This document shows, piece by piece, positions 14,795-34,191 of a stretch of 64,000 nt of DNA (position 1 is its first letter; each line of letters starts with the position of its first letter). The position numbers were made by a program, and so were the translations under genes. A model generated the notes under the pieces. The model searched no databases, had not been told where the DNA came from, and saw only the letters and a list, made by a program, of their open reading frames with translations. This DNA is from Desulfoscipio gibsoniae DSM 7213 (GTDB lineage Bacteria > Bacillota > Desulfotomaculia > Desulfotomaculales > Desulfallaceae), in the NCBI RefSeq assembly GCF_000233715.2, contig NC_021184.1, forward strand, positions 2,876,001 through 2,940,000, written 5' to 3'.

Positions 14795-14825
14795 GGCTTT
14801 ATCCTCCAACCTATTTATCTTCGCA

Positions 14826-17288: not shown

Positions 17289-18179
17289 TCAGAATTCAGA
17301 ATACTTCGGGAACACAAGTTCAACCGGCCGCATCCTGTACATAATGATTTGTCCCCGGCAAAGGGTGCCACTGTCAATTATAACCGAAGGCCCTTTCCTG
17401 GACGACCACTTAAAACCGCTGACGTTACCCTCCGCAGGTATTAAATCTACATGCACCTCCACCGACGCCCCCTGGCCCGCCAGTTTTTCCACCAGTTCTT
17501 TATTGCCCAGCAACCGCATCATACTGTCGGTGGTAGCCGGAAATTCGGAAACAGCTCTCACCCTGCCCAGGATATAGCCGAATTCTTCCTTTCTGACAGT
17601 ACTTGGGGCTACCTGTACTTCCATCCCCGGGCGAACGGTCTTCCCTTCTTCAAGGGGAATAAAAAGAACTGCCTCCAGTTCTCTCTGTTCTTTGCCCTTT
17701 ACCGCCACTCTCATCACCGGGTCTCCGGGTTTTACCCATTCCCCCCTGACTGCGTTTACCTCCAGGATCCGCCCGGCATAGGGGCTGATCACCCGAGACT
17801 CTTGCTCAATTTTTTCGCGCAGCAGGGTTAGTTCTCTTTCAGACAGGGATTCCTCAAAGTTTTTGGTCCACTGGGGGTCAAAGATCCTGGCTACCACTTC
17901 ACCTTTTTGCACGGTGTCCCCCACCGACACTTTCACATCGCTAACCTGGCCGGTAGTTCCCGCTGCCACCGGGGCGATTCCACCCTGGCCCACCAGAATG
18001 CCCCGGACGGAGACGGTGCCGGGAATGCTGCCATAAAACCCCCAAAGCAATATTGTTAAAACCAGGCAGGCCAAACCGAACAGTGCAACCCAGCCCCTGG
18101 GGGATGTAAAGGTAGTAAATAAATCCAACTGCTCCGGGGAAGACAGCTTTTCCAGAGCCGTTTTTCTAAAAAGATCCAC
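17289..18179 (-). CDS. HlyD-family secretion adaptor of NHLM bacteriocin export
   Basis: A 296-residue periplasmic-adaptor-like protein with one N-terminal transmembrane segment (about 33-52) and a lipoyl/barrel-sandwich hybrid domain: GTTGQVSDVKVSVGDTVQKG and then ISPYAGRILEVNAVRGEWVKPGDPVMR in two half-motifs, with only a short coiled-coil hairpin between them. Such short HlyD homologues accompany NHLM ABC1 and ABC2. Start is GTG 18179 behind AGGAGG at seven-base spacing. It lies 24 bases after the fusion transporter gene and 57 bases before ABC1, so they share a transcript. Confidence 0.87.
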   Translation of the reverse strand: MDLFRKTALEKLSSPEQLDLFTTFTSPRGWVALFGLACLVLTILLWGFYGSIPGTVSVRGILVGQGGIAPVAAGTTGQVSDVKVSVGDTVQKGEVVARIFDPQWTKNFEESLSERELTLLREKIEQESRVISPYAGRILEVNAVRGEWVKPGDPVMRVAVKGKEQRELEAVLFIPLEEGKTVRPGMEVQVAPSTVRKEEFGYILGRVRAVSEFPATTDSMMRLLGNKELVEKLAGQGASVEVHVDLIPAEGNVSGFKWSSRKGPSVIIDSGTLCRGQIIMYRMRPVELVFPKYSEF

Positions 18180-21200: not shown

Positions 21201-21233
21201 TAACTTATCCAAACCAACACTGTTTACAGTCAT
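18204..21233 (-). CDS. Cyclic-nucleotide-binding / SLC13-like permease / type I periplasmic-binding fusion protein
   Basis: A 1009-residue fusion. Residues about 12-140 are a CAP/CNBD-type cyclic-nucleotide-binding domain (PLFSGLDRMNL, GDILFQQGEFGDSLYIL, GERECFGEMSLLTGEPRSA, matching the phosphate-binding cassette). A charged linker (about 150-185, KEQANKKKG) leads to 11-12 hydrophobic segments (about 195-620) resembling the SLC13/CitT/ArsB ion-transporter superfamily. The last 340 residues (about 668-1009) form a Leu/Ile/Val-receptor-type ligand-binding domain (VVIGLAGSFSDPEG, AVDEVNASGILMGRKI, AVIGHRQSY), presumably outside the membrane. Start ATG 21233 has GGGAGAGGG upstream; a TTG 21 bases earlier is an alternative. 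First gene of the export operon. Likely role: a cAMP-gated solute transporter or sensor; the ligand is unknown. Confidence 0.82.
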   Translation of the reverse strand: MTVNSVGLDKLKLLDIPLFSGLDRMNLAKLVPVVEEVHYKTGDILFQQGEFGDSLYILARGKVKVFLEEGSQTRELAVLGERECFGEMSLLTGEPRSAGIQAVTDVVVLRLSKDNFDELLRNQNSLAVQFAGILARRLAQVNKEQANKKKGSEEQEPVKGEPQCVVDIPAPETLISQPDKDRAIPVLRAKLNKQQLLSVILAILGSLLLNLLLESQGFNRSQRILLDILFGGAILWSFNVFSFHMISCAMPLLAIFLRASRPETVLSGFTSPSLFMLLGLFAVSAAVVKTGLIYRLVLIVISRFPTGYVGQTLGWVLAGLLITPFLSFTNERVSLGSRMLRSYLDTLRLQNVSAGALGLAFSTLLGFGQLSFMVLSGAVACLFVYQLLPVEVRGEVTYALWLQAALPLSLVFLPLSYLTILLFFRSKEPFQLDHTVIEDQLIILGPITRQEKITLLALLFAFLGLLSYHWHGISGAAICLVSFLLLYGSAVLDDQSIRTEINWNVFISFGALVGFGSALFTSGLPALLADKLSPLLGFLLDSILLFLAVTVIWMKLLRFVLPALPALLVSLILFLPLSEASGINPFVIGLILLLASHTWFLSPEYNGYFTTLFKETGKNLLTNQQTFKLAFVSSFICILAVSFSLPFWKHLDLIVPVKTAQPAMAGAEQQVVIGLAGSFSDPEGLQLKNAVQMAVDEVNASGILMGRKISIEVKDDQGDVTRGMAIAQSLAENKEVVAVIGHRQSYISTQVAAIYDRAGLVMIVPSEVSPQLNRYHTVFSTLPGVDDFGILAARTMLDQGFKRTVICYADGSYGRSLANAFEDEVHARGMKIADRLAVSGGINEWNNLLSKWQILGYDSIFLIDTMPAGAEWITGARRAGLKVPIFAASGLDAEELPRLAGSAAEGTTIFSIFNPGENHPEVEKFIRDYQVKFGADPGVPAAQGYDAVKILVEAMKGTAAAEPAQIAAKLRQMKEYHGITGTHSFTEDGRVAGKEIVVKKVREGKITCP

Positions 21234-21304
21234 GACGCCCTCTCCCACTGGCAAATCTACTTATTGAAGCAAAAATATTTCCTAAATGGCCCTGATCTAA
21301 AAAA

Positions 21305-21357
21305 ATTGTAGCATTTGTTTATAAAGTTTTGGTAAACGTAATCTAAACGAAACTTAA
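21305..21357 (-). promoter_or_regulatory. Promoter with four 11-bp TTA repeats driving the export operon
   Basis: On the minus strand, four adjoining 11-mers read TTAAGTTTCGT (21347-21357), TTAGATTACGT (21336-21346), TTACCAAAACT (21325-21335) and TTATAAACAAA (21314-21324), followed at once by TGC and the -10 TACAAT (21305-21310). No -35 hexamer fits at 17 bases. The start of transcription should be near 21298, some 65 bases before the fusion-transporter ATG. Confidence 0.75.
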
Positions 21358-21377
21358 ATTTTATAAACAAATTCTTA

Positions 21378-21505
21378 ATTCAGGTGGGGTTTTAACCCCA
21401 TCTGAATCTTAGAATTTGTTATCCAGGAGCTTAGCGCCGCTCGCGTGCCCGGAGGGTATATCTCCCGCTTGGAGAAGCGGGAGTATTAGTGGCGGTTAGC
21501 TATCG
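21378..21505. repeat. Inverted-repeat block related to the REP-like family
   Basis: Holds a near-perfect palindrome ATTCAGGTGGGGTT/AACCCCATCTGAAT (about 21379-21408) and a second hairpin CTCCCGCTT/AAGCGGGAG (about 21462-21483), flanked by TTAGCGCCGC and TTAGTGGCGGTTA. The same pieces occur in the repeats at 51532-51660 and 52311-52536. Situated between the response-regulator terminator and the export-operon promoter. Confidence 0.65.
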
Positions 21506-21537
21506 GATAAATTTTGTTTAAATTGAATACAAAAATT

Positions 21538-21573
21538 AAAAGCCTTCACCGGTTAATCGGTAAAAGCTTTTTT
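21538..21573 (-). terminator. Intrinsic terminator after the response-regulator gene
   Basis: Imperfect hairpin with outer arms AAAAGC/GCTTTT and inner ACCG/CGGT. In the minus direction it is followed by TTTTAATTTTTG, about 65 bases after the regulator stop codon. The plus-strand side also carries a T run, so it may act both ways. Confidence 0.6.
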
Positions 21574-21639
21574 GAACAGCCGGATTTAAGGTGAAACTAA
21601 GGAAATGTTAATTTTTGTCGACAATCTATAAACACGGCT

Positions 21640-22353
21640 TTACTTTTCTTTGCTGTTATGCAACTTATAACCTATTCCCCTCACTGTAATGATATACCGG
21701 GGTTGGGAGGGGTTCTGCTCAATTTTTTTACGCAGCCTGTTAATATGAACCATCAGCGTCCTGTTATCGGTATTATCATTGAACTTCCACACCAGTTCCA
21801 GCAAATGGTCATATTTAAAAATCCGGTTGGGATTTTGAGCAAGTAACACGAGAAGTTCAAACTCTTTATTGGTCAGTGTGATCGGGGAACCGTCAACCAA
21901 AACGGTACGGTTGTTCAAGTCTATTTCCAGACCGGGAAAATGAAGTAATTGACTTTTCTCAGGAGGTTCGCAGTTTGAGCTTGGCAGGAAATGGCGGCGT
22001 AAGTTTGCCCTTACCCGGGCAATCATTTCGTTTGGGTTGAATGGTTTGATTATATAGTCATCTCCACCTACCCCGAGACCCAGTACAATATCTGATGAGT
22101 CGTTTTTGGAGGTGAGAAAGATGATGGGAACGTCACTCTCCTTGCGTACTTCACGACAAACTTCAATCCCGTCCAGGCCAGGCATAAGTATGTCCAGGAT
22201 AATCAAGTTGGGTCTATGTGTCCGAAGCAGATCAAAAACCTTATAGCCATCCTCGGCCGTGATTACCTGAAAGCCGTTTTTGACCAGATGATGGCTGGCT
22301 AATTTTCTTACTACGGCTTCATCATCAACCACCAAAATTTTTTCTCCGGCCAT
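21640..22353 (-). CDS. OmpR/PhoB-family response regulator (orphan)
   Basis: Two-domain transcription factor of about 237 residues. The receiver domain begins MAGEKILVVDDEAVVRKL, with phospho-acceptor Asp in LIILDILMPGLDG, the Thr/Ser switch in IIFLTSK and Lys in DYIIKPF. The C-terminal winged helix contains ITLTNKEFELLVLLAQNPN and a recognition helix in TLMVHINRLRKKIE. The frame is open to 22416, but ATG 22353 lies five bases behind GAAGGGAG. No histidine kinase is adjacent. OmpR-type proteins bind 10-11 bp direct repeats; exactly such arrays precede five units of this locus, one of them in the shared gap with precursor 1, so this protein is the obvious candidate regulator (inference). Confidence 0.93.
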   Translation of the reverse strand: MAGEKILVVDDEAVVRKLASHHLVKNGFQVITAEDGYKVFDLLRTHRPNLIILDILMPGLDGIEVCREVRKESDVPIIFLTSKNDSSDIVLGLGVGGDDYIIKPFNPNEMIARVRANLRRHFLPSSNCEPPEKSQLLHFPGLEIDLNNRTVLVDGSPITLTNKEFELLVLLAQNPNRIFKYDHLLELVWKFNDNTDNRTLMVHINRLRKKIEQNPSQPRYIITVRGIGYKLHNSKEK

Positions 22354-22463
22354 ATTACTCCCTTCTTTTTTATGTTTTTTTATAATAATACTGCCAAAAT
22401 AATGTTTATCCTGCAATATATGCGCATTTTTTATTCATATTGTTTATATAACCGGTTAAATAT

Positions 22464-22516
22464 TTAATAAAAGTTTATTATGCGTTTATAAATAATTTAG
22501 AAACAGTTGCTATAAT
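22464..22516 (+). promoter_or_regulatory. Promoter with four 11-bp TTA repeats before precursor peptide 1
   Basis: Plus-strand 11-mers TTAATAAAAGT (22464-22474), TTATTATGCGT (22475-22485), TTATAAATAAT (22486-22496) and TTAGAAACAGT (22497-22507), followed by TGC and the perfect -10 TATAAT (22511-22516). Transcription should begin near 22523, 55 bases before the GTG start. Same geometry as the four minus-strand promoters, although the repeat sequences differ. Confidence 0.75.
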
Positions 22517-22577
22517 ATTTATTGAAGTGAGAATAGGTCATATAAAATTGGTTTTGTTAGATAGGAGGTAAGTCAAG

Positions 22578-22877
22578 GTGAGCCAGGAAGATATGCCGGT
22601 GATCCCGCGGGACCTCAAGGAAAAAATTGTTCAGAAAGCCCGGGAAGATGAAACTTTCAAGAATCAACTTCTGACTAATCCACATAAAGCAATTGCCCGG
22701 TTGGGTACCCATATTTCGAAAGAGGTTGAAGTTAAGGTGATGGAGGAATCAGCCAGAGTAGCCTATCTTGTTCTTCCCGTCTTACCGGAAGAAATGCTCG
22801 ATGAAGAGTTGGACATGGTTGCCGGCGGTATTTGTTTTATCTATAGCGAAAGCAATTCGAATCTTTCAGATCCTTGA
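22578..22877 (+). CDS. NHLP-leader (proteusin-type) RiPP precursor peptide 1
   Basis: A 99-residue precursor. Residues 1-84 form a nitrile-hydratase-alpha-like leader (DLKEKIVQKAREDETFKN, then NPHKAIARLG and VAYLVLPVLP) ending in DMVAGG at 79-84, a double-glycine cleavage site for C39 peptidase transporters. The core is 15 residues, ICFIYSESNSNLSDP, with a single Cys and several Ser/Asn. Start GTG 22578 behind AGGAGGT. The cyclase gene begins 17 bases after the stop, so the two are cotranscribed. The core differs fully from that of precursor 2, while the leaders are clearly related, as expected for one maturation and export system handling two products. Modification chemistry is unknown. Confidence 0.9.
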   Translation: MSQEDMPVIPRDLKEKIVQKAREDETFKNQLLTNPHKAIARLGTHISKEVEVKVMEESARVAYLVLPVLPEEMLDEELDMVAGGICFIYSESNSNLSDP

Positions 22878-22894
22878 ATGGTAAGGAGAATACA

Positions 22895-24796
22895 ATGTTC
22901 GAAAACACATCATCACCCACACCCGGAAGAACGCCTGGCGGATCGGAAAAACCTACAGATTCTGCTAACATGGCAAATAAAAAAATTGGAAGATTGAAAT
23001 GGCCGCTGGCCCTGGTACTATTCACGTTGGTGCAGTTGGCGGTCATGGCGGGGCTGTTCAATCGGGTGGAATTGGCTATGTACGACGCCTGGTTTCGGCT
23101 GCAGGGGGTGCGGGATCCCGGGGAGCGGGTAGTTATCGTGGCCATGGACGAGGCCTCCATCCAGAAAATCGGACCCCTGCCCTGGCCCCGTTCCACCCAC
23201 GCCAGGCTGTTGGAAGCATTGAGTGAAGCCCGGGTGGTGGGGTTTGACCTTGTGTTCGACGTACCCACAGATCCGACAGAGGACGAAGCCTTGGGAATCG
23301 CCATAGCGGAACACGGCCGGGTGATACTGGCCAGCCAGTTTGCTTTTGAGCGTGAACCCAACGGCGAAGTGGCGCAAGTATTCCAGCCGCCCTGCCCCGA
23401 AATCATGGCCGGTGTTGCCGGGCTTGGTTTTGTGAATATGCCCACCGATCCCGACCAGGTGGTGCGCCGGGTTACCACCGTGGACGTGAACACTTTTGAA
23501 GTACCTTTTCCCTCTCTGAACCTGGCGGTGACCATGGCAGCGCTGGGAATGGATCACACACAACTGGAAGTGTCACCCCGCCGATTGGTTTTCGGGGAGC
23601 GGGAAATACCATTGGACGAAATGAACCGGGCCATGCCCTGTTTCTGGGGTTCCCAAGGAGCCTTTAAAACTTACAGTTGCGCAGATGTTTTAAACGGTGT
23701 GTTGTCGCCGGACACTTTTAAAGACCGTATCGTGCTCATTGGCCCTACTGCTTCCGCAGAAAAGGATAATTATCCCACACCATATACCGGCTCCAACATG
23801 GTGCTAAGCGGCGCTTTGCCCACCCCGGGTGTGGAGATTCACGCTTCGGCGGTGCAGAGTTTCCTGGACGGGCGCTGGTACCGCGAAGTCTCTTCGGTGC
23901 TCAACCTGGCTTTTCTTTTATTGGCGGGCATGTTGACAGTGCTAGTGGTTTCAGGACGTGGCCCCTGGGTTGGGCTCGGCGGCACCCTGTCGGTCCTTTT
24001 GGCCGTGTCCGGGACGTCGTTTGGCCTTTGGTGGTATGCCCGCCTGTGGCTTAATGTTGCCGCGCCGGTGGTACTGGTGTTTATGACTTACGCTGCGCTT
24101 ACAGCAGCCGATTTCATCCAGGCCGAGATGGGCCGCCGCCGCACCAGGGCCATGTTTAGCCGTTATGTATCGCCCGACGTGGTTGAGGAATTAATGGAAA
24201 GCCCCGCTGAAGTGATGCTGGGCGGCCGCCGCCAGTCCCTGACGGTTATGTTTTGCGATATACGCGGCTTTACATCCTACAGCGAAAACAAACCCCCGGA
24301 GGAAGTGGTCAGCCGGCTGAACGAATACCTTACTGCCATGACCCGGGTTATTTTCAATCACGGCGGGACCCTGGACAAGTACCTGGGGGACGGCCTGATG
24401 GCTATTTTTGGCGCCCCGGTTTATTACCCGGACCATGTGCAGCGGGCCATTATGGCTGCTGTGGATATCCAAAAAGAAATCAACATTCTGAACAGAAAAT
24501 GGGTGGAGCAGGGTCAGCAGCCGCTGAACATCGGAGTTGGAATCAACTCCGGCAGCGTGCTGGTGGGTAACGTGGGCAGCCCCGAACGCATGGACTACAC
24601 AGTTATAGGCGAAGACGTCAACCTGGCTTCACGGGTGGAGGGGTTGACCAAAACTTTCGAAACCCTGATCGTTATTAGTGAACGTTCCAAACACATGTTG
24701 GATGAGGCTGATGGCAATTCGGTACCGGAATTGAGCTACCTGGGCCATGCCCAAGTTAAAGGCTTTACTGAGCCGGTTGGAGTGTATACCATTTGA
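22895..24796 (+). CDS. CHASE2-domain class III adenylate/guanylate cyclase
   Basis: Membrane-bound nucleotide cyclase of about 633 residues. One N-terminal helix (about 28-48), an extracytoplasmic CHASE2 sensor (about 50-325, with FDLVFDVPTDPTEDEALG and DRIVLIGPTA), three more membrane helices (about 335-410), and a cytoplasmic catalytic domain (about 430-620). Metal-binding aspartates lie in VMFCDIRGFTSYSE and KYLGDGLMAIFGAP; the Lys of LDKYLGDG and the MDYTVIGEDVNLASR segment fit adenylate-type cyclases. ATG 22895 with AAGGAG six bases upstream is preferred to an in-frame TTG at 22874. Base composition looks GC-richer than its neighbours. It probably supplies the ligand for the cyclic-nucleotide domain of the fusion transporter across the gap. 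Confidence 0.92.
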   Translation: MFENTSSPTPGRTPGGSEKPTDSANMANKKIGRLKWPLALVLFTLVQLAVMAGLFNRVELAMYDAWFRLQGVRDPGERVVIVAMDEASIQKIGPLPWPRSTHARLLEALSEARVVGFDLVFDVPTDPTEDEALGIAIAEHGRVILASQFAFEREPNGEVAQVFQPPCPEIMAGVAGLGFVNMPTDPDQVVRRVTTVDVNTFEVPFPSLNLAVTMAALGMDHTQLEVSPRRLVFGEREIPLDEMNRAMPCFWGSQGAFKTYSCADVLNGVLSPDTFKDRIVLIGPTASAEKDNYPTPYTGSNMVLSGALPTPGVEIHASAVQSFLDGRWYREVSSVLNLAFLLLAGMLTVLVVSGRGPWVGLGGTLSVLLAVSGTSFGLWWYARLWLNVAAPVVLVFMTYAALTAADFIQAEMGRRRTRAMFSRYVSPDVVEELMESPAEVMLGGRRQSLTVMFCDIRGFTSYSENKPPEEVVSRLNEYLTAMTRVIFNHGGTLDKYLGDGLMAIFGAPVYYPDHVQRAIMAAVDIQKEINILNRKWVEQGQQPLNIGVGINSGSVLVGNVGSPERMDYTVIGEDVNLASRVEGLTKTFETLIVISERSKHMLDEADGNSVPELSYLGHAQVKGFTEPVGVYTI

Positions 24797-24865
24797 TAGC
24801 GTTCCGGTGCTTTTATATTATTATTGTTTAAAGTTGGTATCTTTATCGGGAAGGGGATTTAACCG

Positions 24866-25201
24866 ATGAATCTTTTTGCCTGGCTTCTGGTGGGGCACCT
24901 GGTGGGCGATTACCTGCTGCAGAACCGCTGGATGGCGGAGGGCAAGACAACCCGATGGGCGCCGCTGCTGGTGCATTCAACGGTATACACACTGGCGGTG
25001 GCCCTGCCGGCGGTGGCGGCCGGCGGGCTTAGCTGGCGTGGAATATTACTGGTATTCCTGGCCCACCTGGTGCTGGACCGCCGTGGTTTCGTGCATTTCT
25101 GGACCGAAAGGGTAACTGGTTCCGCTAATGTACCCTGGCTGGTAATCATGGCGGATCAGGCCTGGCATATATTAGTGCTATCCCTGGCCACATTAGTTTA
25201 A
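24866..25201 (+). CDS. DUF3307-family small membrane protein
   Basis: A 111-residue integral membrane protein with three or four hydrophobic segments. Typical DUF3307 residues are visible: HLVGDYLLQNRWMAEGK near the N-terminus, VHSTVYTLAVALP, AHLVLDRRGFVHFW and a C-terminal ADQAWHILVL. The conserved His/Asp pairs suggest a metal or catalytic site in the membrane, but function is unknown. GGGAAGGGG precedes the ATG. It lies 69 bases after the cyclase on the same strand and may be the last gene of the precursor 1-cyclase unit. Confidence 0.75.
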   Translation: MNLFAWLLVGHLVGDYLLQNRWMAEGKTTRWAPLLVHSTVYTLAVALPAVAAGGLSWRGILLVFLAHLVLDRRGFVHFWTERVTGSANVPWLVIMADQAWHILVLSLATLV

Positions 25202-25343
25202 AAATTTCCGGTGCATTTCCGGGAAGACACGATAGGGATATTCTTTGGCATTTATCCCACCAACAAGGCGTCAAAGCTTGACCCCATTGTTGCGTTGCTG
25301 ACTTTCACCCTTAAGAACGATGCGCTGCCAAACGCAGAAAACA

Positions 25344-25366
25344 CCCCGGAAGAAAAACTTCCGGGG
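25344..25366 (-). terminator. Intrinsic terminator after precursor 2
   Basis: Perfect 9-bp stem CCCCGGAAG/CTTCCGGGG with a five-base loop. On the minus strand it is followed by TGTTTTCTG, 22 bases after the stop of precursor 2. On the plus strand the 3' flank is TTAAATAATA, so it could also stop the cyclase-DUF3307 transcript. Confidence 0.75.
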
Positions 25367-25388
25367 TTAAATAATAGAATAATACTCA

Positions 25389-25691
25389 TCACCGTAAGGG
25401 CGGCTCTATAGCAATTTGGCCCATGGTACAACTGCACCCGCCTGCAACCATATCCAGTGCTCCGTCGGCTAATACTTCCTGGCTCATCGGCAATACAAGG
25501 TAGGCCAGTTTTGGTGTTTCTTCAACTACTTTAATATCAATTTCCTTTGGGATTTCAACCCCGAACTGGGCAATGGTCTTGTGGGGATCAGACATCAATT
25601 CCTTTTTAAACCCCTCGTCTTCCCCGGCTTTTTTAATGATTTGTTCTTCAATTTCCCTCCGTGTCAAATTTTTGTTGCTGTTCGTTTCCAT
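25389..25691 (-). CDS. NHLP-leader (proteusin-type) RiPP precursor peptide 2
   Basis: A 100-residue precursor closely parallel to precursor 1. The leader (1-85) has REIEEQIIKKAGEDEGFKK, DPHKTIAQFG, KLAYLVLPMS and ends LDMVAGG; the core is 15 residues, CSCTMGQIAIEPPLR, with two cysteines in a C-S-C start and a proline pair. ATG 25691 follows a very strong AAAGGAGGTGA site. Monocistronic: own repeat-type promoter at 25787-25839, 5' stem-loop at 25729-25775 and terminator at 25344-25366. The radical SAM gene lies upstream on the same strand, with the promoter between them. The conserved leader suggests one maturase and one C39 transporter process both peptides. Confidence 0.9.
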   Translation of the reverse strand: METNSNKNLTRREIEEQIIKKAGEDEGFKKELMSDPHKTIAQFGVEIPKEIDIKVVEETPKLAYLVLPMSQEVLADGALDMVAGGCSCTMGQIAIEPPLR

Positions 25692-25728
25692 AGCCTCATC
25701 ACCTCCTTTTTAAGTTGATCACCAGATC

Positions 25729-25775
25729 CATAGAATTTTGTTTAAACAAAATAACCTATGTAACAAAACTCTATG
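25729..25775 (-). promoter_or_regulatory. Stem-loop in the 5' leader of precursor 2 mRNA
   Basis: Arms CATAGAATTTTGTT (25729-25742) and AACAAAACTCTATG (25762-25775) pair at 13 of 14 positions around a 19-base loop. The predicted transcript start near 25780 places the stem only about five bases from the 5' end, a position typical of mRNA-stabilising hairpins. An alternative inner palindrome around GTTTAAAC could compete with it. Confidence 0.55.
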
Positions 25776-25786
25776 ATCATTAAAAA

Positions 25787-25839
25787 AATATAACATTTGT
25801 TTATAAATTTTTGGTAAACGCGTTTTAAACACAACTTAA
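25787..25839 (-). promoter_or_regulatory. Promoter with four 11-bp TTA repeats before precursor 2
   Basis: Minus-strand 11-mers TTAAGTTGTGT (25829-25839), TTAAAACGCGT (25818-25828), TTACCAAAAAT (25807-25817) and TTATAAACAAA (25796-25806), then TGT and -10 TATATT (25787-25792). The proximal 11-mer is identical to that of the export-operon promoter. No -35 match. Confidence 0.75.
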
Positions 25840-25926
25840 ATTTTTATAAATTTTTTACAACATATAAAGAGAACGTTCCCAAAGGAACAAGCCTCTTGTT
25901 TTCGGCAAGGCCATCTGACATGTCTT

Positions 25927-27270
25927 TTACAACTGGCTCTTTTCATGAAAATATAGTGTTTTTATATATTGTTCAAGATGATCATCTAAAGGATTGCATT
26001 TTTTAGGTTGGCCGTTGACTATTTCCGAGTAGCCACAGCCTCCCATGCAAATGGGCAGCCTTTTGCATTCCGGGCAGTGGTCATTGGTAAAGGGTTCCCA
26101 TAACAGCCAGCGAATTTCGTGCATCCGCTGGCTGTTGCTGCGGGCCTTAAAATTAGTGATATTACCCACACTGGCTTCCTTTCGGCCGGTTTCTTTCCAG
26201 CACTTATACAGATCTCCATCCGGGGAAATGATATATGCATCCGGGCTGCAGGCACCACAGGCAAAAGTTAGTGAGGGATAATAACGCGCTTTATCAATAT
26301 TAAACTGTTTTTGCAGTAAAGATTTATGAAATTCTATTTTCAGGTCTCTCGCCTGTTCCAAGGTCAAAGTACTGCATTGATAATTATGGCACCCGGGTGT
26401 ATCCGCATAAACAAAGCCCTGATAGATATGAACATTTTTAAGATTATTGCTGTAAAGAATATCCAGTAATTTATCAGTATCATGCACATTTGATTTATCT
26501 GTATTGATCCTGATCGTCACATCAAATCCTTCTTCCGCCAGTAGTTTTATACCCTGCAGGATGCGGTCGAAGGTAGGTTTATGACTTCCCTTGAGCATTC
26601 TGCGCCGGTTATGCACCTCCGGCGGGCCGTCCAGGGTAATTTGCAGGGAAGTGATTTTGCTGTCTTTCAGCCTTTGTATAATTTTTGGATCATGGGCAAT
26701 CAGGTAGCCGTTGGTAACCATCTTGGCATAGTAGGCTATGTTATTTTGAGCGGCGATATCAATCATTTTTTTTGATAATGTATAGATTAAATCTTTTTCC
26801 AGCAGCGGCTCGCCGCCATACCAAAAAATATGTAAAGAGTCTAATTTATTTGCTCTATCGGTTATGAACTCAAGCAAAGCCTGCTGCACAGTTTCAGACA
26901 TCCCCTTATCGTACCGGGGTTCTTCTCCCTCGCCGGGATGCTGAAAACAGTAGATGCAGTCGAAATTGCACCGCATGGTCGGAACAATGGTTATGGGTAA
27001 CTTGCTGCGGTTGTATTTGCTGCTGTTATACATTTTTTTTAAGATTAACAGCTCGTCAACAACGTCATCAATCACAAAACCCCCTTGCTTCATGCGGTCA
27101 ATAAACTGCTTCCCCCGGGGTGAGAGCGAGTTATAGTCAATCCGGTCGGCACTCAACAAATCAATGCAGGTCTTTTCAGTTTCCACCAGCCCGCCGGTCA
27201 TGCTGTTATAAATGATCATGTTGTCAGAGTTTTCGGCAGGCCAGATAAAGTTGTATCTGGAAGGTTTCAT
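25927..27270 (-). CDS. Radical SAM/SPASM peptide maturase
   Basis: 447-residue radical SAM enzyme presumed to install cross-links or other changes in the NHLP precursors. Residues 1-90 are an N-terminal precursor-recognition-like domain. The 4Fe-4S motif CNFDCIYCFQ (C-x3-C-x2-C) is near residue 104, followed by the FWYGGEPLLEKDLI (GGEP) motif and a TIM-barrel. The C-terminal SPASM part has CGACSPDAYIISPDGDLYKCW, read as two cysteine groups, plus CPECKRLPICMGGCGY and a final Cys (PKKCNPL), enough for two auxiliary clusters. ATG 27270 follows AAGGAGG. Second gene of the GNAT-radical SAM unit started at 28247-28299. Substrate assignment rests on neighbourhood. Confidence 0.9.
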   Translation of the reverse strand: MKPSRYNFIWPAENSDNMIIYNSMTGGLVETEKTCIDLLSADRIDYNSLSPRGKQFIDRMKQGGFVIDDVVDELLILKKMYNSSKYNRSKLPITIVPTMRCNFDCIYCFQHPGEGEEPRYDKGMSETVQQALLEFITDRANKLDSLHIFWYGGEPLLEKDLIYTLSKKMIDIAAQNNIAYYAKMVTNGYLIAHDPKIIQRLKDSKITSLQITLDGPPEVHNRRRMLKGSHKPTFDRILQGIKLLAEEGFDVTIRINTDKSNVHDTDKLLDILYSNNLKNVHIYQGFVYADTPGCHNYQCSTLTLEQARDLKIEFHKSLLQKQFNIDKARYYPSLTFACGACSPDAYIISPDGDLYKCWKETGRKEASVGNITNFKARSNSQRMHEIRWLLWEPFTNDHCPECKRLPICMGGCGYSEIVNGQPKKCNPLDDHLEQYIKTLYFHEKSQL

Positions 27271-27301
27271 CTTTTGCCTCCTTAAATTGGGTAATATATA
27301 A

Positions 27302-28216
27302 TTAAATTTCCTTTACGGATTGCATAAAAACCACCGAATCTATAGCGGCCGGCCTGCCCGGCTTGTTCGGACTGCAATGTTTTTCAAAAAATCTGATTAA
27401 GTGCTGGTTGGTTATAAATTCAGGGTAGTAGGCCAGGTCCATTTCAGCATAAGTTATACCTTCCTTGATCTGATTTTTTATTGCTTCCGCCATCAGCCGG
27501 ATACCAAGGCCGGTTTTTTGCAAGTCCGGCCTTACATAGAGCCTCTCCCAAAATAAGGTATCTTCTGCAACACGATTTGTAATCACATAACCGGCTATCT
27601 CTCCCCGGTAGGACAACCATAGGCTTGTGGCCGGGTGGGGATTTTTAAGATGTGGCTGAAAAGGAGACGCCCAATCCGGATACCATTTGTTATGACCGTT
27701 TTTTACTTCTTCCAGCTTCTCCCCGGAAATCTCAGGCCAGGGGATTGCGGCACAGCAGTCACCCAGGGAAACACGATCTATCCACCCGTTCTTAAAGTGG
27801 AAAATATTATATTTGTTATACACCCTCCGCTTTACCGGTTCGCTCCAGCCGCACTTTTGCAGGATCTTTTCTACTGCGGGTGTATATTTTTTACCGGCGG
27901 GGAAACGAATAAAAATATTTTGGCAACCTTTTTCTTTTAGTTTCCTTTCCACATATAAAAGCAATTCAGTACCAAGACCGTTATTTCTATAGCTGCCGCC
28001 AACAAATAAACTTTTCACGTCCCCCATTAAACCACCTTGTCCGTTATCGAATATCCGGGCCAGGACAAGACCGGCAGGCCCCAAAAAATGTGAAGCGGCT
28101 CCAATCACAGTTCTCTCATTTAAACAATCCCGGCGTATAATTTCGCGCATCTGTGGATCGCTGAATACTTCATATTGAGGTATCATTGCCGGCACAAGCG
28201 GTTGAATAGTAAACAT
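27302..28216 (-). CDS. Tandem GNAT-family acetyltransferase-like protein
   Basis: A 304-residue protein with two GNAT folds. The N-terminal copy carries the acetyl-CoA motif SLFVGGSYRNNGLGTELL (R/Q-x-x-G-x-G as RNNGLG, about residue 78); the C-terminal copy has LYVRPDLQKTGLGIRLM (QKTGLG, about residue 228). GNAT enzymes acetylate amines; in a RiPP locus this could be peptide tailoring or self-protection by acetylation, both inference. ATG 28216 follows AGGAGTG six bases upstream. First gene of the two-gene unit with the radical SAM gene (31-base gap). Confidence 0.82.
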   Translation of the reverse strand: MFTIQPLVPAMIPQYEVFSDPQMREIIRRDCLNERTVIGAASHFLGPAGLVLARIFDNGQGGLMGDVKSLFVGGSYRNNGLGTELLLYVERKLKEKGCQNIFIRFPAGKKYTPAVEKILQKCGWSEPVKRRVYNKYNIFHFKNGWIDRVSLGDCCAAIPWPEISGEKLEEVKNGHNKWYPDWASPFQPHLKNPHPATSLWLSYRGEIAGYVITNRVAEDTLFWERLYVRPDLQKTGLGIRLMAEAIKNQIKEGITYAEMDLAYYPEFITNQHLIRFFEKHCSPNKPGRPAAIDSVVFMQSVKEI

Positions 28217-28246
28217 AATTTACACTCCTTACATAATTCTATAAAA

Positions 28247-28299
28247 ATTGTAGCAATCGTTCATAAATTTTTGTTAAACACGGCCTAAACTTAATTTAA
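28247..28299 (-). promoter_or_regulatory. Promoter with four 11-bp TTA repeats before the GNAT-radical SAM unit
   Basis: Minus-strand 11-mers TTAAATTAAGT (28289-28299), TTAGGCCGTGT (28278-28288), TTAACAAAAAT (28267-28277) and TTATGAACGAT (28256-28266), then TGC and -10 TACAAT (28247-28252). The transcript start would be near 28240, only about 24 bases from the ATG. Confidence 0.75.
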
Positions 28300-28330
28300 A
28301 TTTTTATAAATTTTATATAACATTTGCAGG

Positions 28331-29566
28331 TCAGGCTTGTAACATAAATCGCCAAAGATATGGGCTTTTTTCCTGAAAAATATGTTCCAGCACGGGGTCT
28401 TTCTTGTGCAGGTAGGCGGTAAAGGTCAGTTCCACAACCCGGTCGGGGACAAAAGAGGGGCTCTCCTCCCGGCTGCACCGGAAATATTGGGTGGAATAGC
28501 TGACGTAAAGGTTTGTGCCGGCCAGTTGAAAAGACATCACTTCGCCGTAGCCGTTCGGTTTTCCACCCGTCGGTTCACCGACAAAAATAGCCCTGGTGGC
28601 TTCTCTGAACTGCAGGCCATTGAACATTCCCGCAGAAAATGTTTCCCGTCCTACAATGACGTACAACCCTCCCGGCCGGTTGACATGTTCCATGTTTCGT
28701 ACTTCCCGGATGAAAGGTTGCAGCAGCCTGGAATTACCGCCATTATTGTGGCGCAAATCAATAATCAGCCTCTCCACATCGCTGTCCCGCAGGAAGGCAA
28801 GCTGTTGCCGGATAAAGCTGTCCAGGGGGTTGCTGGAGTCATTCAAACAGGCATTATATTGGAAATATACTGTACCGGTATCCGGAAGATGCTCATACCA
28901 GTAAGGCATGCCCCTGTTTTTCAGGTATAGGGGTTCTGGTACAGGAGCTTGCGGGTGCTGGGGCCACAGTCCCCCTTTGCCTGCCCAGACGGAGTTTTCG
29001 CTCACCGGGAGTGCATGGATCAGTTCAGTGACAGGTTGTTTCCCGGTATCCCGGAAAGTCATTAAAACCCGGTCCGGGTCAGGCAGGATGCCAAGCCCGT
29101 GCAGGACTTCCGGGCGCACCAGATACCAGGGAATGTTTCTTTTTAGCCACCACTTGTTCTCATGGGCTATAACCCCGGTGATGGCCTTTTCTATTTCCTC
29201 AATGCCTTTGCCGTTAATTTCAACCAGCCGGCAGTTGAGAATATGACCGTAACCGGGAGCGGCATGGGTGACGTAAATTCCTTCCTTAAACCAGTACAGG
29301 GTCAGGGGATATACTTTTTCCGGCCGCCACCATAACTGGGTGTGGGCATCTCCTGCCGAAGCCACCCACCGGGCGATGGCCGCCTTAATCTCGCTTTCTT
29401 TCATCCCGGGGAGGGCCCGGCGCAGTTCCAGAAGCTCCTTCTCCATGTCATCGCGGCTTCTCTGGAAATATAAGTTGACATGCCGGCGGGGCAGTTCCCG
29501 GGCCAGTTGGTCCAGGACCGCATACCAGGTTTCCGCGTCCCCGGCGGACTCGCACCAATGCGACAT
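28331..29566 (-). CDS. S41-family (C-terminal-processing-type) serine peptidase without signal peptide
   Basis: 411 residues. The C-terminal half is an S41 protease core: VERLIIDLRHNNGGNSRLLQP, then YVIVGRETFSAGMFN with the likely nucleophile Ser in TFSAG and Lys exactly 25 residues later in GEPTGGKPNGYGE, the Ser/Lys spacing of CtpA-type enzymes. The N-terminal half (helical, with DAHTQLWW and a divergent PDZ-like region, CRLVEINGKGIEEIEKA) resembles the S41 entry domains. There is no signal peptide or membrane segment, unlike most S41 proteases, so it should act in the cytoplasm. ATG 29566 follows AAGGATGG. It has its own repeat-type promoter, so it belongs to the RiPP regulon; leader trimming or immunity are possible roles. 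Confidence 0.82.
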   Translation of the reverse strand: MSHWCESAGDAETWYAVLDQLARELPRRHVNLYFQRSRDDMEKELLELRRALPGMKESEIKAAIARWVASAGDAHTQLWWRPEKVYPLTLYWFKEGIYVTHAAPGYGHILNCRLVEINGKGIEEIEKAITGVIAHENKWWLKRNIPWYLVRPEVLHGLGILPDPDRVLMTFRDTGKQPVTELIHALPVSENSVWAGKGGLWPQHPQAPVPEPLYLKNRGMPYWYEHLPDTGTVYFQYNACLNDSSNPLDSFIRQQLAFLRDSDVERLIIDLRHNNGGNSRLLQPFIREVRNMEHVNRPGGLYVIVGRETFSAGMFNGLQFREATRAIFVGEPTGGKPNGYGEVMSFQLAGTNLYVSYSTQYFRCSREESPSFVPDRVVELTFTAYLHKKDPVLEHIFQEKSPYLWRFMLQA

Positions 29567-29596
29567 TTAAACCATCCTTTTATCTTTTTCTATTTT

Positions 29597-29649
29597 ATTT
29601 TAGCAATGGTTTATAAACTTTTGGTAAACGTTCTCTAAACGCAACTTAA
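29597..29649 (-). promoter_or_regulatory. Promoter with four 11-bp TTA repeats before the S41 peptidase
   Basis: Minus-strand 11-mers TTAAGTTGCGT (29639-29649), TTAGAGAACGT (29628-29638), TTACCAAAAGT (29617-29627) and TTATAAACCAT (29606-29616), then TGC and -10 TAAAAT (29597-29602). Predicted transcript start near 29590. Confidence 0.75.
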
Positions 29650-29651
29650 AT

Positions 29652-29735
29652 TTTATGTGTGTCTGCCAGATAGGCATGTACATAAACCGCCATAGATATG
29701 GATATGTTTCAACACTGGGTCTTTCCTTCCCATGT
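29652..29735 (-). pseudogene. Relic of the 3' end of a second S41 peptidase gene
   Basis: Minus-strand translation gives YMGRKDPVLKHI and, after a frame change, PYLWRFMYMPIW. These match HKKDPVLEHIF and SPYLWRFMLQA at the C-terminus of the intact S41 protein. At DNA level it pairs with 28325-28420 with a gap. Nothing upstream of this tail survives, so a tandem copy of the peptidase gene was mostly deleted. The intact gene's promoter begins two bases after the relic. Confidence 0.65.
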
Positions 29736-29760
29736 AAAATGAATTGAAATTGAAAATATA

Positions 29761-29792
29761 AACCCTGTCCGGCGGTTATGTCGGACAGGGTT
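29761..29792 (-). terminator. Intrinsic terminator after the SLH surface-protein gene
   Basis: Perfect 11-bp stem AACCCTGTCCG/CGGACAGGGTT with a ten-base loop, followed on the minus strand by TTATATTTTC. It lies 130 bases after the stop codon of the surface-protein gene. The plus-strand side is followed by ATTTTGTT and may also function. Confidence 0.75.
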
Positions 29793-29922
29793 ATTTTGTT
29801 ACGATCTGACCTGGAATTACTTAATTGTTCACTACCTATTACGGATACTTTTCAGGCTAATTAACTGCTATGCTGATTCTACTATAGTTTGAACTGTAAG
29901 AATCGTTGCTTGTTAATTCAGC

Positions 29923-32900
29923 CTAACCAAGAATACCAATAGGAACAATGAAATCTACCTCACCACTCCAAGCGTCACTGTCGAAATAGACTTCTCCAAT
30001 GCCAAAAACTGCTCCATCTAGCGTAAGAGTCAAAACCTTATCTGATATGAGCTCCGCATCAATAACCGTTAAGTTCTCAAGTACGCCACTTAAGTTGATG
30101 TATTCGCTTAGCTCTCCTAAAATATCGGATCTAAATGTTGAGTTGCCATCTATTGTGAAGGTGAGGATTAAATGTTCCGTTGGTGTATCGTCAATTGCCA
30201 CTGCCACTGTAACTCTTTCAACAAATAACTCTGCAGAAACACTCTCGTCGAAAGTAAGGTTGTACGGGCTACCATCAGATGTCAATCCTTCGGCAATTAG
30301 TAAACTGGCATTAGTTGCAGAATAAAATTTAAACAGATCCCACCCCTCAGCTGTTGCTATTTCTGTAACGTCGTTGCCATGTTTATCATTAATAATAACT
30401 TGTGTATCTTCAGAGAAGTTCGTATTCTCACCAAAAACATCAACATATACGAATCCATCTCCGATATAACCCTCCATCAGCACATTGCAGTCAAAGTGTA
30501 CAAAAGGAAGGGTTGTTGTATCGACTACGCTCACTGTCAGTGTGGGATCCACACCGGCACTGAAGTCAAAGGTCAGTATTACATCTCCAAGGTTCTGGGC
30601 TGCCAGGTAACCTTTCTTAATGGTTACTACATTCCCGGCCACTGTGTAGTCTGTGCCATTTTCCAAAGTGTTTACACCATTTTTAATTGCAGACAGCGTG
30701 TTGCCGTTTAAGGTCATGGTTACTTCTACATCTGACTGGTTTGTTTCGTTCTTGTCAAAGTTCGCTGCTGTCGGGTTGATTGCAGAGTTCTGCGGGGTCT
30801 GCGGGGTTGTATCTACCACGCTCACTGTCAGTGTGGGATCCACGCCGGCACTGAAGTCAAAGGTCAGTATTACATCTCCAATGTTCTGGGCTGCCAGGTA
30901 ACCTTTCTTAATGGTTATTACATCCCCGGCCACTGTGTAGTCGGTGCCATTTTCCAAAGTGTTTACACCATTTTTAATTGCAGATAGCGTGTTGCCGTTT
31001 AAGGTCATGGTTACTTCTACATCTGACTGGTTTGTTTCGTTCTTGTCAAAGTTCGCTGTCGTCGGGTTGATTGCAGAGTTCTGCGGGGTCTGCGGGGTTG
31101 TATCTACCACGATCACTGTCAGTGTGCGATCCACGCCGGCACTGAAGTCAAAGGTCAGTATTACATCACCAATGTTCTGGGCTGCCAGGTAACCTTTCTT
31201 AATGGTTATTACATCCCCGGCCACTGTGTAGTCGGTGCCATTTCCCAAAGTGTTTACACCATTTTTAATTGCAGACAGCGTGTTGCCGTTTAAGGTCATG
31301 GTTACTTCTACATCTGACTGGTTTGTCTCGTTCTTGTCAAAGTTCGCTGTCGTCGGGTTGATTGCAGAGTTCTGCGGGGTCTGCGGGGTTGTATCTACCA
31401 CGATCACTGTCAGTGTGCGATCCACGCCGGCACTGAAGTCAAAGGTCAGTATTACATCACCAATGTTCTGGGCTGCCAGGTAACCTTTCTTAATGGTTAC
31501 TACATCCCCGGCCACTGTGTAGTCGGTGCCATTTTCCAAAGTGTTTACACCATTTTTAATTGCAGACAGCGTGTTGCCGTTTAAGGTCATGGTTACTTCT
31601 ACATCTGACTGGTTTGCTACGTTCTTGTCAAAGTTCGCTGTCGTCGGGTTGATTGCAGAGTTCTGCGGGGTTGTATCTACCACGATCACTGTCAGTGTGG
31701 GATCCACGCCGGCATTGAAGGCAAAGGTCAGTATTACATCACCAATGTTCCGGGCTGCCAGGTAACCTTTCTTAATGGTTACTACATCCCCGGCCACTGT
31801 GTAGTCGGTGCCATTTTCCAAAGTGTTTACACCATTTTTAATTGCAGATAGCGTGTTGCCGTTTAAGGTCATGGTTACTTCTACATCTGACTGGTTTGTT
31901 TCGTTCTTGTCAAAGTTCGCTGTCGTCGGGTTGATTGCAGCGTTAAGGGGTATTACTGTTACCGTAAATTGTCTGGTGCCGCTGGTGTAGCCGGCTTTAC
32001 TGGCTGTTACGGTTATGGTGGTTGTTCCCGGAGCATGGCCCGTTATGGTTATATTGTTACCGCTTACGGTTACTGTAGCCACGCTTTCATCACTCGATAC
32101 TGCACTCTTGGTCGCATCGGCCGGTGTGCTTGTTACGCTGATGCTCTGGCTGCCTCCGTCATTTAGGTTCAGGTTTAAACCAGCTATGGCATTTATTTCT
32201 ACTGTGCCAGCTACTGTTACAGTGAATGTTGTTGTGCCGCTGGTGTAGCCGGTCTTGCTGGCGGTTACGGTTATGGTGGCGGTTCCCGGAGCATGGCCGG
32301 TTATGGTTACGCTATCCCCGTTTACTGCTACTGTTGCCACGCTTTCATCACTGGATACTGCGCTCTTGCTTGCATCAGCCGGTGTACTTGTTACACTTAT
32401 GCTCTGGCTGCCTCCGGCACTTAGGCTAATATCAGTAATAGGGCTTATAACTACTGACCCCGTATTACCGCCGCCTCCACCACCTCCGCCACCTCCGCCT
32501 CCAGTAGAAGTGGGAGTATTTGAAGTTCCTGTTTGAAGTGCCGCAGGTAGCGGTGGTATGCCTTGGGACACCTGGCCCAATGCCTGGTTAATTAATGATT
32601 GCAGTGTTTGACCACCTGCCGGTTGCTGCGAAGGTTGCTGTGTTTGTACAGGTTGTGGTGATGCTGGTGACGGTAATGCCGGTTCCTGGTTGGCCTCGAT
32701 ATCATCTGCCCTCTGCTGTGCCCAGTCTGATACCTGTGCCCATGCCTGCATATTCTGGGTAGTCATGGGCGCAGGAGGGGCTGGCGGGGCCTGGGATGAC
32801 AGTGTTGCTGTTTGCTGACCCTGTACCAGTGAAACTGTCTGACCGCCGGAGGTTACTTCTACTTCACCGGTTAGCAGGCTTGTTCTGAAACTACCGTTGC

Positions 32901-34110
32901 TAGCCACATAGTTCTCCCAGAAAGTCCCCCGGACGGCTGCCACACCCCAGGGCATGTCTACCTTTACTTTGACTTTTTTATTTTGAGAGGCCTCAAACCA
33001 GGGCGCGTTTTGTCCACCCTGGTCAGGCTTTGTATTGGCAATTAAATCTGATATTTTTATATTATTAAGCGAAGCAACCATGGTACGCTTTGTAATACCA
33101 ACGTTACTGTTCTTATCAACATCGACACTTGCCTGCTGTGGTATTGACAGAGCGCCGAATATTTGTCCCTGCTTTAGGTACACTTCCAGCCAATCCACTG
33201 CAATACCGGCTTTGCCACCAATGGTTATATAGGAACGACCTTTGGCATCCTTTAAGGTCAGTTCGGTATTTTCTTTTATCAATATGCCGGTTCCGTCGGG
33301 GAAAACTAGTTCAGCAGAGCTATCCCGGGATGTTTTTATTTTATCTCCCAAATTAATTGATATCGTTTCTTTTACCTGTTCACTATTATTATTTGATGCT
33401 TTGATCAGGCTAACCTCTCCGCCGGTAATCTTTAAAGTGCATGGTAATTCTGTTTCGTACAGTATTTCGTCCCTGGTTAAAAGGACTGCCAGTGCCCTCG
33501 ACATGTCTCCACGTGTTAACGGTGCACCGGGAAAGAAATGTTTTTTATCGCCAGACATACCTATCATTCCTGATGCCAGACCAATGGCGACCGATTGCGC
33601 AGCCCAGTGGCCGGGCATTAAATCTTCCAGAACAGGAAGCTCAATGCCGGAGACTGTCTGTCCGGAAATGCGCAGGATCAGTGCTATACCTTCTGCCCTG
33701 TTTAATACTTCGTTAGGACGAAAAGTCCCGTCGGGATACCCACGCACTAAACCCGACGAAACTGCTGTCTTGATACTACCTTCTGCCCAGTGTCCGGTGG
33801 GAACATCAATAAAGGATATTGCTGAAGATTGTGATTTTAATCCAGCAGCATGGACGAGAAGTGAAACTGCCTCTGCACGGGTTATCCCCGAATCAGGCCT
33901 AAAAGTTCCGTCTGAAAAACCATTAATTATTCCCTTGTTAGCTAGGTAGTTAATAAATAATGAGTTGGCATTCGTGTTTGGTACATCGGAAAAGACTTGA
34001 TTGTCTATGGAATTAGCCATTGCTACGGGTATTAAGGAAAATAATAATATGGTTATCACCAAATACACTAAATATTGCTTGCGAAGGACGTTAGTCTTAA
34101 AACAAATCAC
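29923..34110 (-). CDS. SLH-anchored surface protein with FecR, BIG2 and five X2-type repeats
   Basis: Secreted 1395-residue protein. Signal peptide (1-32, hydrophobic stretch LVYLVITILLFSLIPVAMA), then three SLH motifs (about 37-215; FSDVPNTNANSLFINYLA, FIDVPTGHWAEGSI, GHWAAQSV) that bind cell-wall polysaccharide. A FecR-type domain (about 230-440) is followed by a Pro/Gln-rich linker and a poly-Gly stretch near residue 545. Next come two BIG2 Ig-like domains (ISVTSTPADA..KSAVSSDESVATV), five near-identical X2-like Ig domains (NSAINPTTANFDKN..., about 720-1200) and a unique C-terminal domain. Start GTG 34110 behind AGGTGGGG. A promoter resembling the RiPP-regulon promoters lies at 34139-34191. 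Role presumably in the S-layer or surface adhesion. Confidence 0.88.
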   Translation of the reverse strand: MICFKTNVLRKQYLVYLVITILLFSLIPVAMANSIDNQVFSDVPNTNANSLFINYLANKGIINGFSDGTFRPDSGITRAEAVSLLVHAAGLKSQSSAISFIDVPTGHWAEGSIKTAVSSGLVRGYPDGTFRPNEVLNRAEGIALILRISGQTVSGIELPVLEDLMPGHWAAQSVAIGLASGMIGMSGDKKHFFPGAPLTRGDMSRALAVLLTRDEILYETELPCTLKITGGEVSLIKASNNNSEQVKETISINLGDKIKTSRDSSAELVFPDGTGILIKENTELTLKDAKGRSYITIGGKAGIAVDWLEVYLKQGQIFGALSIPQQASVDVDKNSNVGITKRTMVASLNNIKISDLIANTKPDQGGQNAPWFEASQNKKVKVKVDMPWGVAAVRGTFWENYVASNGSFRTSLLTGEVEVTSGGQTVSLVQGQQTATLSSQAPPAPPAPMTTQNMQAWAQVSDWAQQRADDIEANQEPALPSPASPQPVQTQQPSQQPAGGQTLQSLINQALGQVSQGIPPLPAALQTGTSNTPTSTGGGGGGGGGGGGNTGSVVISPITDISLSAGGSQSISVTSTPADASKSAVSSDESVATVAVNGDSVTITGHAPGTATITVTASKTGYTSGTTTFTVTVAGTVEINAIAGLNLNLNDGGSQSISVTSTPADATKSAVSSDESVATVTVSGNNITITGHAPGTTTITVTASKAGYTSGTRQFTVTVIPLNAAINPTTANFDKNETNQSDVEVTMTLNGNTLSAIKNGVNTLENGTDYTVAGDVVTIKKGYLAARNIGDVILTFAFNAGVDPTLTVIVVDTTPQNSAINPTTANFDKNVANQSDVEVTMTLNGNTLSAIKNGVNTLENGTDYTVAGDVVTIKKGYLAAQNIGDVILTFDFSAGVDRTLTVIVVDTTPQTPQNSAINPTTANFDKNETNQSDVEVTMTLNGNTLSAIKNGVNTLGNGTDYTVAGDVITIKKGYLAAQNIGDVILTFDFSAGVDRTLTVIVVDTTPQTPQNSAINPTTANFDKNETNQSDVEVTMTLNGNTLSAIKNGVNTLENGTDYTVAGDVITIKKGYLAAQNIGDVILTFDFSAGVDPTLTVSVVDTTPQTPQNSAINPTAANFDKNETNQSDVEVTMTLNGNTLSAIKNGVNTLENGTDYTVAGNVVTIKKGYLAAQNLGDVILTFDFSAGVDPTLTVSVVDTTTLPFVHFDCNVLMEGYIGDGFVYVDVFGENTNFSEDTQVIINDKHGNDVTEIATAEGWDLFKFYSATNASLLIAEGLTSDGSPYNLTFDESVSAELFVERVTVAVAIDDTPTEHLILTFTIDGNSTFRSDILGELSEYINLSGVLENLTVIDAELISDKVLTLTLDGAVFGIGEVYFDSDAWSGEVDFIVPIGILG
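30510..31950 (-). repeat. Five tandem ~291-bp coding repeats (X2-like domains)
   Basis: Five head-to-tail units of about 291 bases; one is 282 because its linker has PQ instead of PQTPQ. They are nearly identical at DNA level, differing by scattered substitutions such as ENGT/GNGT and KNET/KNVA. The first and last copies are the most divergent, as expected for recent internal duplication by unequal exchange. Copy number is likely to vary between strains, and this stretch is prone to assembly collapse. Confidence 0.9.
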
Positions 34111-34138
34111 AGCAACCCCACCTAAAATTAATGAAATA

Positions 34139-34191
34139 ATTATACATGTACCTGTTAAACTGTATCTAAACTAAAATAAAATTAACTTAAC
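34139..34191 (-). promoter_or_regulatory. Weaker copy of the 11-bp-repeat promoter before the SLH gene
   Basis: Minus strand: TTAGATACAGT (34059-34069 plus 100, i.e. 34159-34169) and TTAACAGGTAC (34148-34158) in register, followed by ATG and the -10 TATAAT (34139-34144). The two distal 11-mers (34170-34191) are A/T rich but their TTA is out of register by one or two bases. Transcription would start near 34132, about 22 bases before the GTG. Confidence 0.5.

Follow-up and report, generated by a model that had tools for sequence, protein, structure and literature searches.

Predicted operator-promoters of tandem TTA repeats in an NHLP-type RiPP locus of Desulfoscipio gibsoniae, with a candidate regulator and partner kinase

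At pho-box promoters controlled by PhoB, direct repeats replace the -35 element. In Bacillus subtilis, PhoP promoters carry four TTAACA-like repeats before the -10 element. Here we analyse 64,000 nucleotides of Desulfoscipio gibsoniae DSM 7213 (hereafter the window; positions 2,876,001-2,940,000 of NC_021184.1, a single contig of 4,855,529 bp), in which a set of promoters with similar repeats surrounds the gene of a response regulator. Like the E. coli PhoB system, the locus combines an OmpR/PhoB-family regulator with tandem direct repeats that keep a strict distance from the core promoter (PMC10294691). In contrast to that system, the half-sites are of the TTA type rather than TGTCA, the units number about six, the -10 element is extended, and the target is a RiPP cluster. 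The B. subtilis PhoP promoters share direct repeats at steps of about 11 bp just upstream of the -10 element, but they differ in half-site and partner kinase, and the sites described here have no exact match beyond the RiPP locus.

The regulator contains a receiver domain (PF00072, 102.8 bits) and a DNA-binding domain (PF00486, 100 bits), both above cut-off. The nearest curated models by score are MtrA (244 bits), YycF/WalR (234.5 bits), and RpaB (226.4 bits), and the regulator falls below their cut-offs (300, 340, and 330 bits, respectively) and below that of PhoB (TIGR02154, 195.5 of 296.2 bits). It is a member of the OmpR/PhoB family by its domains, and is not PhoB, WalR, MtrA, or RpaB by these cut-offs. 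WalR also recognizes an 11-bp TGTWAH direct repeat (PMC5405149), whereas the sites of the window are confined to one locus. SARP regulators such as AfsR share the OmpR-type DNA-binding fold and use direct repeats spaced by 11 bp, close to the -10 elements of secondary-metabolite genes (PMC10936776). However, a SARP carries an OmpR-type DNA-binding domain followed by BTA and no receiver; the regulator of the window has a receiver domain, no BTA match, and no further Pfam domain. HstK-type dual Ser/Thr-His kinases carry Pkinase, GAF, HisKA, and HATPase_c domains in one chain (PMC1262709). The same four domains occur in one predicted protein of the window, which differs in its additional REC and Hpt domains and in a syntenic OmpR-type partner.

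NHLP precursors are found in several phyla, and the main text of the paper that defines them contains no word beginning with "promoter" or "regulator" (PMC2887384). Among the titles and abstract beginnings listed in searches of the open-access literature, we found no report of NHLP-cluster regulation through such sites, and none of such a kinase-regulator pair.

Operator-promoters of the RiPP locus

The locus has NHLP-leader precursors and the NHLM export set (ABC1, ABC2, and HlyD), as expected of an NHLP-type RiPP locus (Table 1). The two precursors are the only matches to the TIGR03793 leader model in the genome. The protein that precedes the export genes combines, unusually, a cNMP-binding domain with a DASS-type symporter and a periplasmic binding protein. 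The five CBM_X2 copies of the surface protein appear nearly identical by eye.

Table 1 Features of the locus, in window coordinates
Feature	Coordinates	Strand	Remarks
Operator-promoter 1	21305-21358	-	4 x TTTA-N7, TGCTACAAT; precedes 18204-21254 and NHLM export genes
Operator-promoter 2	22463-22516	+	TGCTATAAT; precedes NHLP precursor 22578-22877; points away from regulator gene
Operator-promoter 3	25787-25840	-	TGTTATATT; precedes NHLP precursor 25389-25691
Operator-promoter 4	28247-28300	-	TGCTACAAT; precedes GNAT gene 27302-28216; G012 copy identical across 54 bp
Operator-promoter 5	29597-29650	-	TGCTAAAAT; precedes S41-like protein 28331-29566
Operator-promoter 6	34139-34191	-	class B: one 10-bp step, TATAAT without TGn; precedes SLH/CBM_X2 protein 29923-34110
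NHLP export ABC transporter 2	11933-14809	-	TIGR03797 above cut-off
NHLP export ABC transporter with peptidase domain	15036-17231	-	TIGR03796 above cut-off
NHLP system HlyD-type secretion protein	17289-18179	-	TIGR03794 above cut-off
cNMP_binding + Na_sulph_symp + Peripla_BP_6 fusion protein	18204-21254	-	followed by NHLM export genes
OmpR/PhoB-family response regulator (RR)	21640-22353	-	Response_reg + Trans_reg_C; proposed binder of the six sites
NHLP-family RiPP precursor 1	22578-22877	+	TIGR03793 91.9 bits, cut-off 50.9
NHLP-family RiPP precursor 2	25389-25691	-	TIGR03793 100.1 bits, cut-off 50.9
Radical SAM/SPASM peptide maturase	25927-27270	-	nearest TIGR04334, under its cut-off
GNAT acetyltransferase	27302-28216	-	radical SAM gene comes next
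Peptidase S41-like protein	28331-29566	-	
SLH + Big_2 + 5 x CBM_X2 surface protein	29923-34110	-	
Hybrid kinase, 2053 aa	34287-40448	-	Pkinase, AAA_16, TPR_CHK1, GAF, HisKA, HATPase_c, Response_reg, Hpt; proposed regulator partner

A preliminary description of the window placed five promoters here, each with TTA repeats that run into an extended -10 element and with no -35 element, and a weaker sixth one. All five are present at the positions and on the strands claimed. In each, four TTTA units follow one another at exact 11-bp spacing, and the last unit is positioned 15 bp upstream of an extended -10 element (TGnTAnnnT). The best TTGACA match at spacers of 16-18 bp retains 2-3 of six letters, in line with the claimed absence of a -35 element. 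A -10 element without a -35 element suggests an activator. The sixth site is also there; it lacks a TGn at the right phase, and its best TTGACA match at the same spacers is 4 of six letters. The distances between the -10 elements and the start codons adopted here are 29-96 bp.

The sites are rare in the genome. In 4,855,529 bp, the exact pattern has five matches, which are the five sites themselves, and the backwards-read control has none; omission of the TG of the extended -10 element returns the same five matches and again no control match. The five lie inside 8.4 kb, and all six sites lie within one 13-kb NHLP RiPP locus. The looser pattern of the sixth site matches the genome once and the control not at all. 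When up to three mismatches are allowed, the matches increase to 11, six of them extra (one is a shifted copy of the site at 28247), and the control gives five. We set these weaker matches (2-3 mismatches) aside, because their number is about that of the control. One of them, at 2956108, has as its nearest downstream ORF (L059 4278-5789) one that resembles a permease by eye; another is at 1389960. A shared regulon would be contradicted by numerous matches of equal quality in front of unrelated genes; the genome-wide scans give no such set. Sites of a Pho regulon would precede phosphate genes; our scan, which covers the genome by exact pattern, places matches in the RiPP locus only. Across 398 genomes of the phylum, the exact pattern occurs five times in D. 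gibsoniae and once in G151, where one 11-mer is repeated. A genome of another genus outside this draw (G012) has three exact matches, and elsewhere it has two further matches at one mismatch versus one control match.

The operator is longer than described. The preliminary description counted exactly four repeats, which is too few: when the sites are aligned on the -10 element, extra TTA units appear upstream, and we therefore dropped the four-repeat model. In the five D. gibsoniae sites, an additional TTA is found at -55 to -57 in four and at -67/-68 in three. The alignment comprises 8 class-A sites (five from D. gibsoniae, three from G012), 4 class-B sites, and 13 class-C sites. In class A, TTA occupies -14, -25, -36, and -47 in 8/8 sites, and -57 and -68 in 4/8 each, with near misses in the others. 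In class B, it occurs at -14 (4), -25 (4), -35 (3), -46 (3), -57 (4), and -68 (2). In class C, it occurs at -25 (8), -35 (11), -46 (7), -58 (6), and -68 (8), and position -15 has TTA in 4 sites and TTG in 5. In eight class-C sites, the 10-nt bins from -80 to +9 have conservation values of 0.47-0.81, and those outside have at most 0.35. The full operator would therefore consist of about six units at 10-11-bp steps, of which the two outermost have their best support in other genomes. The distance between the last repeat and the -10 element is constant within 1 bp in most sites. In G232 and G483, the TG that would make the -10 element an extended one is missing.

The regulator, its sites, and its partner kinase in relatives

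Fourteen orthologs of the regulator share at least 60% identity (D. gibsoniae, G012, G221, G113, G404, G232, G483, G425, G222, G160, G247, G068, G027, and G022b), of which G113/G404 and G232/G483/G160 are congeners and not independent. The recognition-helix region R-T-x-x-V-H-x-x-R-L-R is present in all of them. In thirteen, from several families, the 600 bp that lead away from the regulator gene contain an operator-type site, with scores of 17.8-24.6 and P ≤ 0.002 for each against 1000 dinucleotide shuffles. The exception is G160, whose regulator is 67% identical; its 600 bp contain no site (score 1.5, P 0.64). We designed the scorer after inspection of the loci of D. gibsoniae, G012, G113, G068, G027, and G022b; seven of the eight loci that were unseen at that stage pass.

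As a control, we scored 34 regions flanking other OmpR-family regulator genes, on both strands. Five reach 15 (seven strand-wise), and one exceeds 17.8 (19.4). The score alone is therefore unspecific, and the weight rests on the constant place and geometry of the sites. A cruder test for TTA chains that ignores the -10 element gives P < 0.05 in 10 of the 14 orthologs; the four that fail it are G425, G160, G247, and G068. In the 398-genome draw, the class-C pattern is found in 7 of 10 genomes that bear the regulator versus 11 of 388 others (Fisher P 1.2e-8; backwards-control count 11), a comparison in which only the low background is independent, because the pattern was derived from these regulator loci.

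Among five weaker relatives of the regulator (51-58% identity), G013 has a site, and G022a, G070, G011, and G123 do not. Elsewhere in the G022a and G070 loci, TTAAGGTT-type 11-bp repeats occur, with NHLP-like sequence nearby. Such repeats precede TGCTAAAAT or TGCTAGAAT at L053 5992, L055 5066, and L055 13492, and these two loci also have NHLP-like sequence along with genes for a kinase and for a regulator of 57-58% identity. The TTAAGGTT-type repeats may represent a diverged second form of the switch.

The genes faced by the site vary: an NHLP precursor, an actin-like gene with bactofilin, a 154-aa protein with a PFL-like protein, and others. The actin-like and bactofilin genes lie behind the site in six orthologs (G221, G113, G404, G425, G222, and G247), joined in five of the six by an M23 peptidase; these assignments come from protein clusters, with Pfam run on the G113 proteins only. 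In G232 and G483, the site faces the 154-aa protein, and the PFL-like protein is identified by Pfam in G232. G425 has a further site before an ORF that resembles, by eye, this 154-aa protein. A third class-C site of G425 lies away from the regulator (L177 1494, score 17.9). The G027 site faces genes that resemble polysaccharide synthesis genes in a reading by eye. For the G068 and G022b sites, we found no clear target.

The regulator had been called an orphan, which the relatives do not bear out. Next to the regulator gene, tail to tail, lies a homolog of the hybrid kinase in 12/12 orthologs outside D. gibsoniae and G012; in G221, this homolog is split into two ORFs. In D. gibsoniae itself, 12 kb that include part of the RiPP cluster separate the two genes. 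A second site (score 15.3) lies upstream of the kinase ORF in G232 (by 247 bp) and G483 (by 370 bp), hinting at autoregulation. In D. gibsoniae, no site scoring >15 precedes the kinase gene or the regulator gene.

A regulator homolog at E ≤ 1e-72 is absent from 6/6 genomes of the same genus; the locus is therefore patchily distributed. A search of genome contigs for the regulator returned 80 loci, the best at 52% identity (L063), with no clear ortholog. In a tblastn search of plasmids, all the matches listed are below 60% identity.

A proposed relay and its alternatives

The comparison supports one regulon with OmpR/PhoB-type tandem direct repeats in place of the -35 element. It also favours the local regulator as the likely binder, as had been predicted, in that the site follows the regulator gene across families and the genes it faces differ. 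Six sites before the genes of one cluster, together with the sites beside the regulator in relatives, suggest that one regulator, likely with its partner kinase, controls the cluster jointly. A kinase-regulator relay, often found beside actin-like/bactofilin operons in relatives, probably controls the RiPP cluster, with the sites as operators of the regulator.

The best reading is that the relay would work like PhoB-type activation. The hybrid kinase is the most likely source of phosphate for the regulator, via its own REC and Hpt domains. The phosphorylated regulator would align head to tail along TTA-type half-sites, about six in number and spaced at 10-11 bp, with the final one about 15 bp upstream of the -10 element. 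When bound, it would substitute for the missing -35 element and bring RNA polymerase to the -10 element, which is mostly extended. Because the presumed transcription units of the cluster carry such promoters, its precursors, tailoring enzymes, and exporter would be induced jointly. The sequences show the sites, their restriction to one locus of the genome, their conservation next to the regulator, and the proximity of kinase and regulator genes; we infer binding by the regulator, phosphotransfer, the signal, and that the effect is activation and not repression. The relay is proposed as a small, complete, and testable circuit of kinase, regulator, operator, and target genes in the RiPP cluster of a sulfate reducer. 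It would also provide a dual Ser/Thr-His kinase with a partner and an output.

The local regulator could also bind the sites and repress the cluster, with derepression as the signal. The repeats cover the promoter to about 15 bp before the -10 element, and PhoB, of the same family, activates or represses depending on the position of its site (PMC10294691). However, the promoters have no good -35 element and, in most sites, an extended -10 element, as expected of an activator-dependent promoter, and the near-constant spacing of the last repeat to the -10 element likewise argues against repression, which we consider rather unlikely. Binding by another OmpR-family regulator, with the neighbouring one incidental, is distinctly unlikely. 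Such regulators number at least 13 in the genome at E ≤ 1e-45, the local one included (18 of 44 candidates scored), and direct repeats of 11 bp are used elsewhere in the family, for example TGTWAH-N5-TGTWAH by WalR (PMC5405149). But a global regulator should have sites elsewhere, whereas no exact match lies outside the locus, and the site adjoins an ortholog of the local regulator in 13/14 cases.

The 11-bp TTTA periodicity might alternatively reflect a phased AT-rich bend or an UP-like element spread by promoter copying, with no dedicated regulator. The repeats are indeed AT-rich and helically phased, and four of the sites are copies of one cassette. In G232 and G483, however, where the 300 bp beside the regulator gene are ~51-52% G+C, the spacers are G-rich and the TTA/TTG positions are kept; we regard this explanation as highly improbable.

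Copies of a promoter cassette

The four minus-strand sites are mutually 77-88% identical over 54-81 nt. They are therefore copies of one promoter cassette, and we rejected an independent origin of the four. The preliminary description had the geometry constant and the sequences varying; given the likeness among these four sites, the latter is partly right. Varying columns among the five sites number 0/21 in the motif versus 23/33 elsewhere (Fisher P 9e-8), a contrast that is partly circular because the motif was derived from the same five sites. Among the four cassette copies, the numbers are 0/21 versus 17/33. The operator sites beside the regulators of relatives are a better test than this contrast. 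The regulon seems to have grown by the copying of a cassette of some 54-81 bp.

Tentatively, the module of dual Ser/Thr-His hybrid kinase, OmpR-type regulator, and six-unit operator may have taken over the RiPP cluster in this lineage by copying of the cassette to positions before several transcription units. In the other families sampled, the module most often neighbours an actin-like/bactofilin operon, so that peptide production would now respond to an envelope- or shape-linked signal. If true, HstK-like kinases would gain a regulator and a directly testable DNA target.

Most of the locus recurs in G012. The three exact sites there precede the S41, GNAT, and NHLP 1 genes, and of two class-B sites, one is 30 bp upstream of an ORF that matches window positions 22874-24796. 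The G012 NHLP 2 gene has no site before it, and the gap between the radical SAM and NHLP 2 genes is 26 bp versus 235 bp in D. gibsoniae. The G012 counterpart of the fusion protein 18204-21254 seems to be without the symporter part, judged from match positions.

Two stretches next to operators have features of their own. Upstream of operator 5, positions 29672-29725 match the 3' end of the S41-like gene (28333-28403) in pieces of 31 and 24 nt at 87%, as if this stretch were a duplicated, decayed S41 copy. Just upstream of operator 1, positions 21366-21420 form a 55-bp imperfect palindrome (86%).
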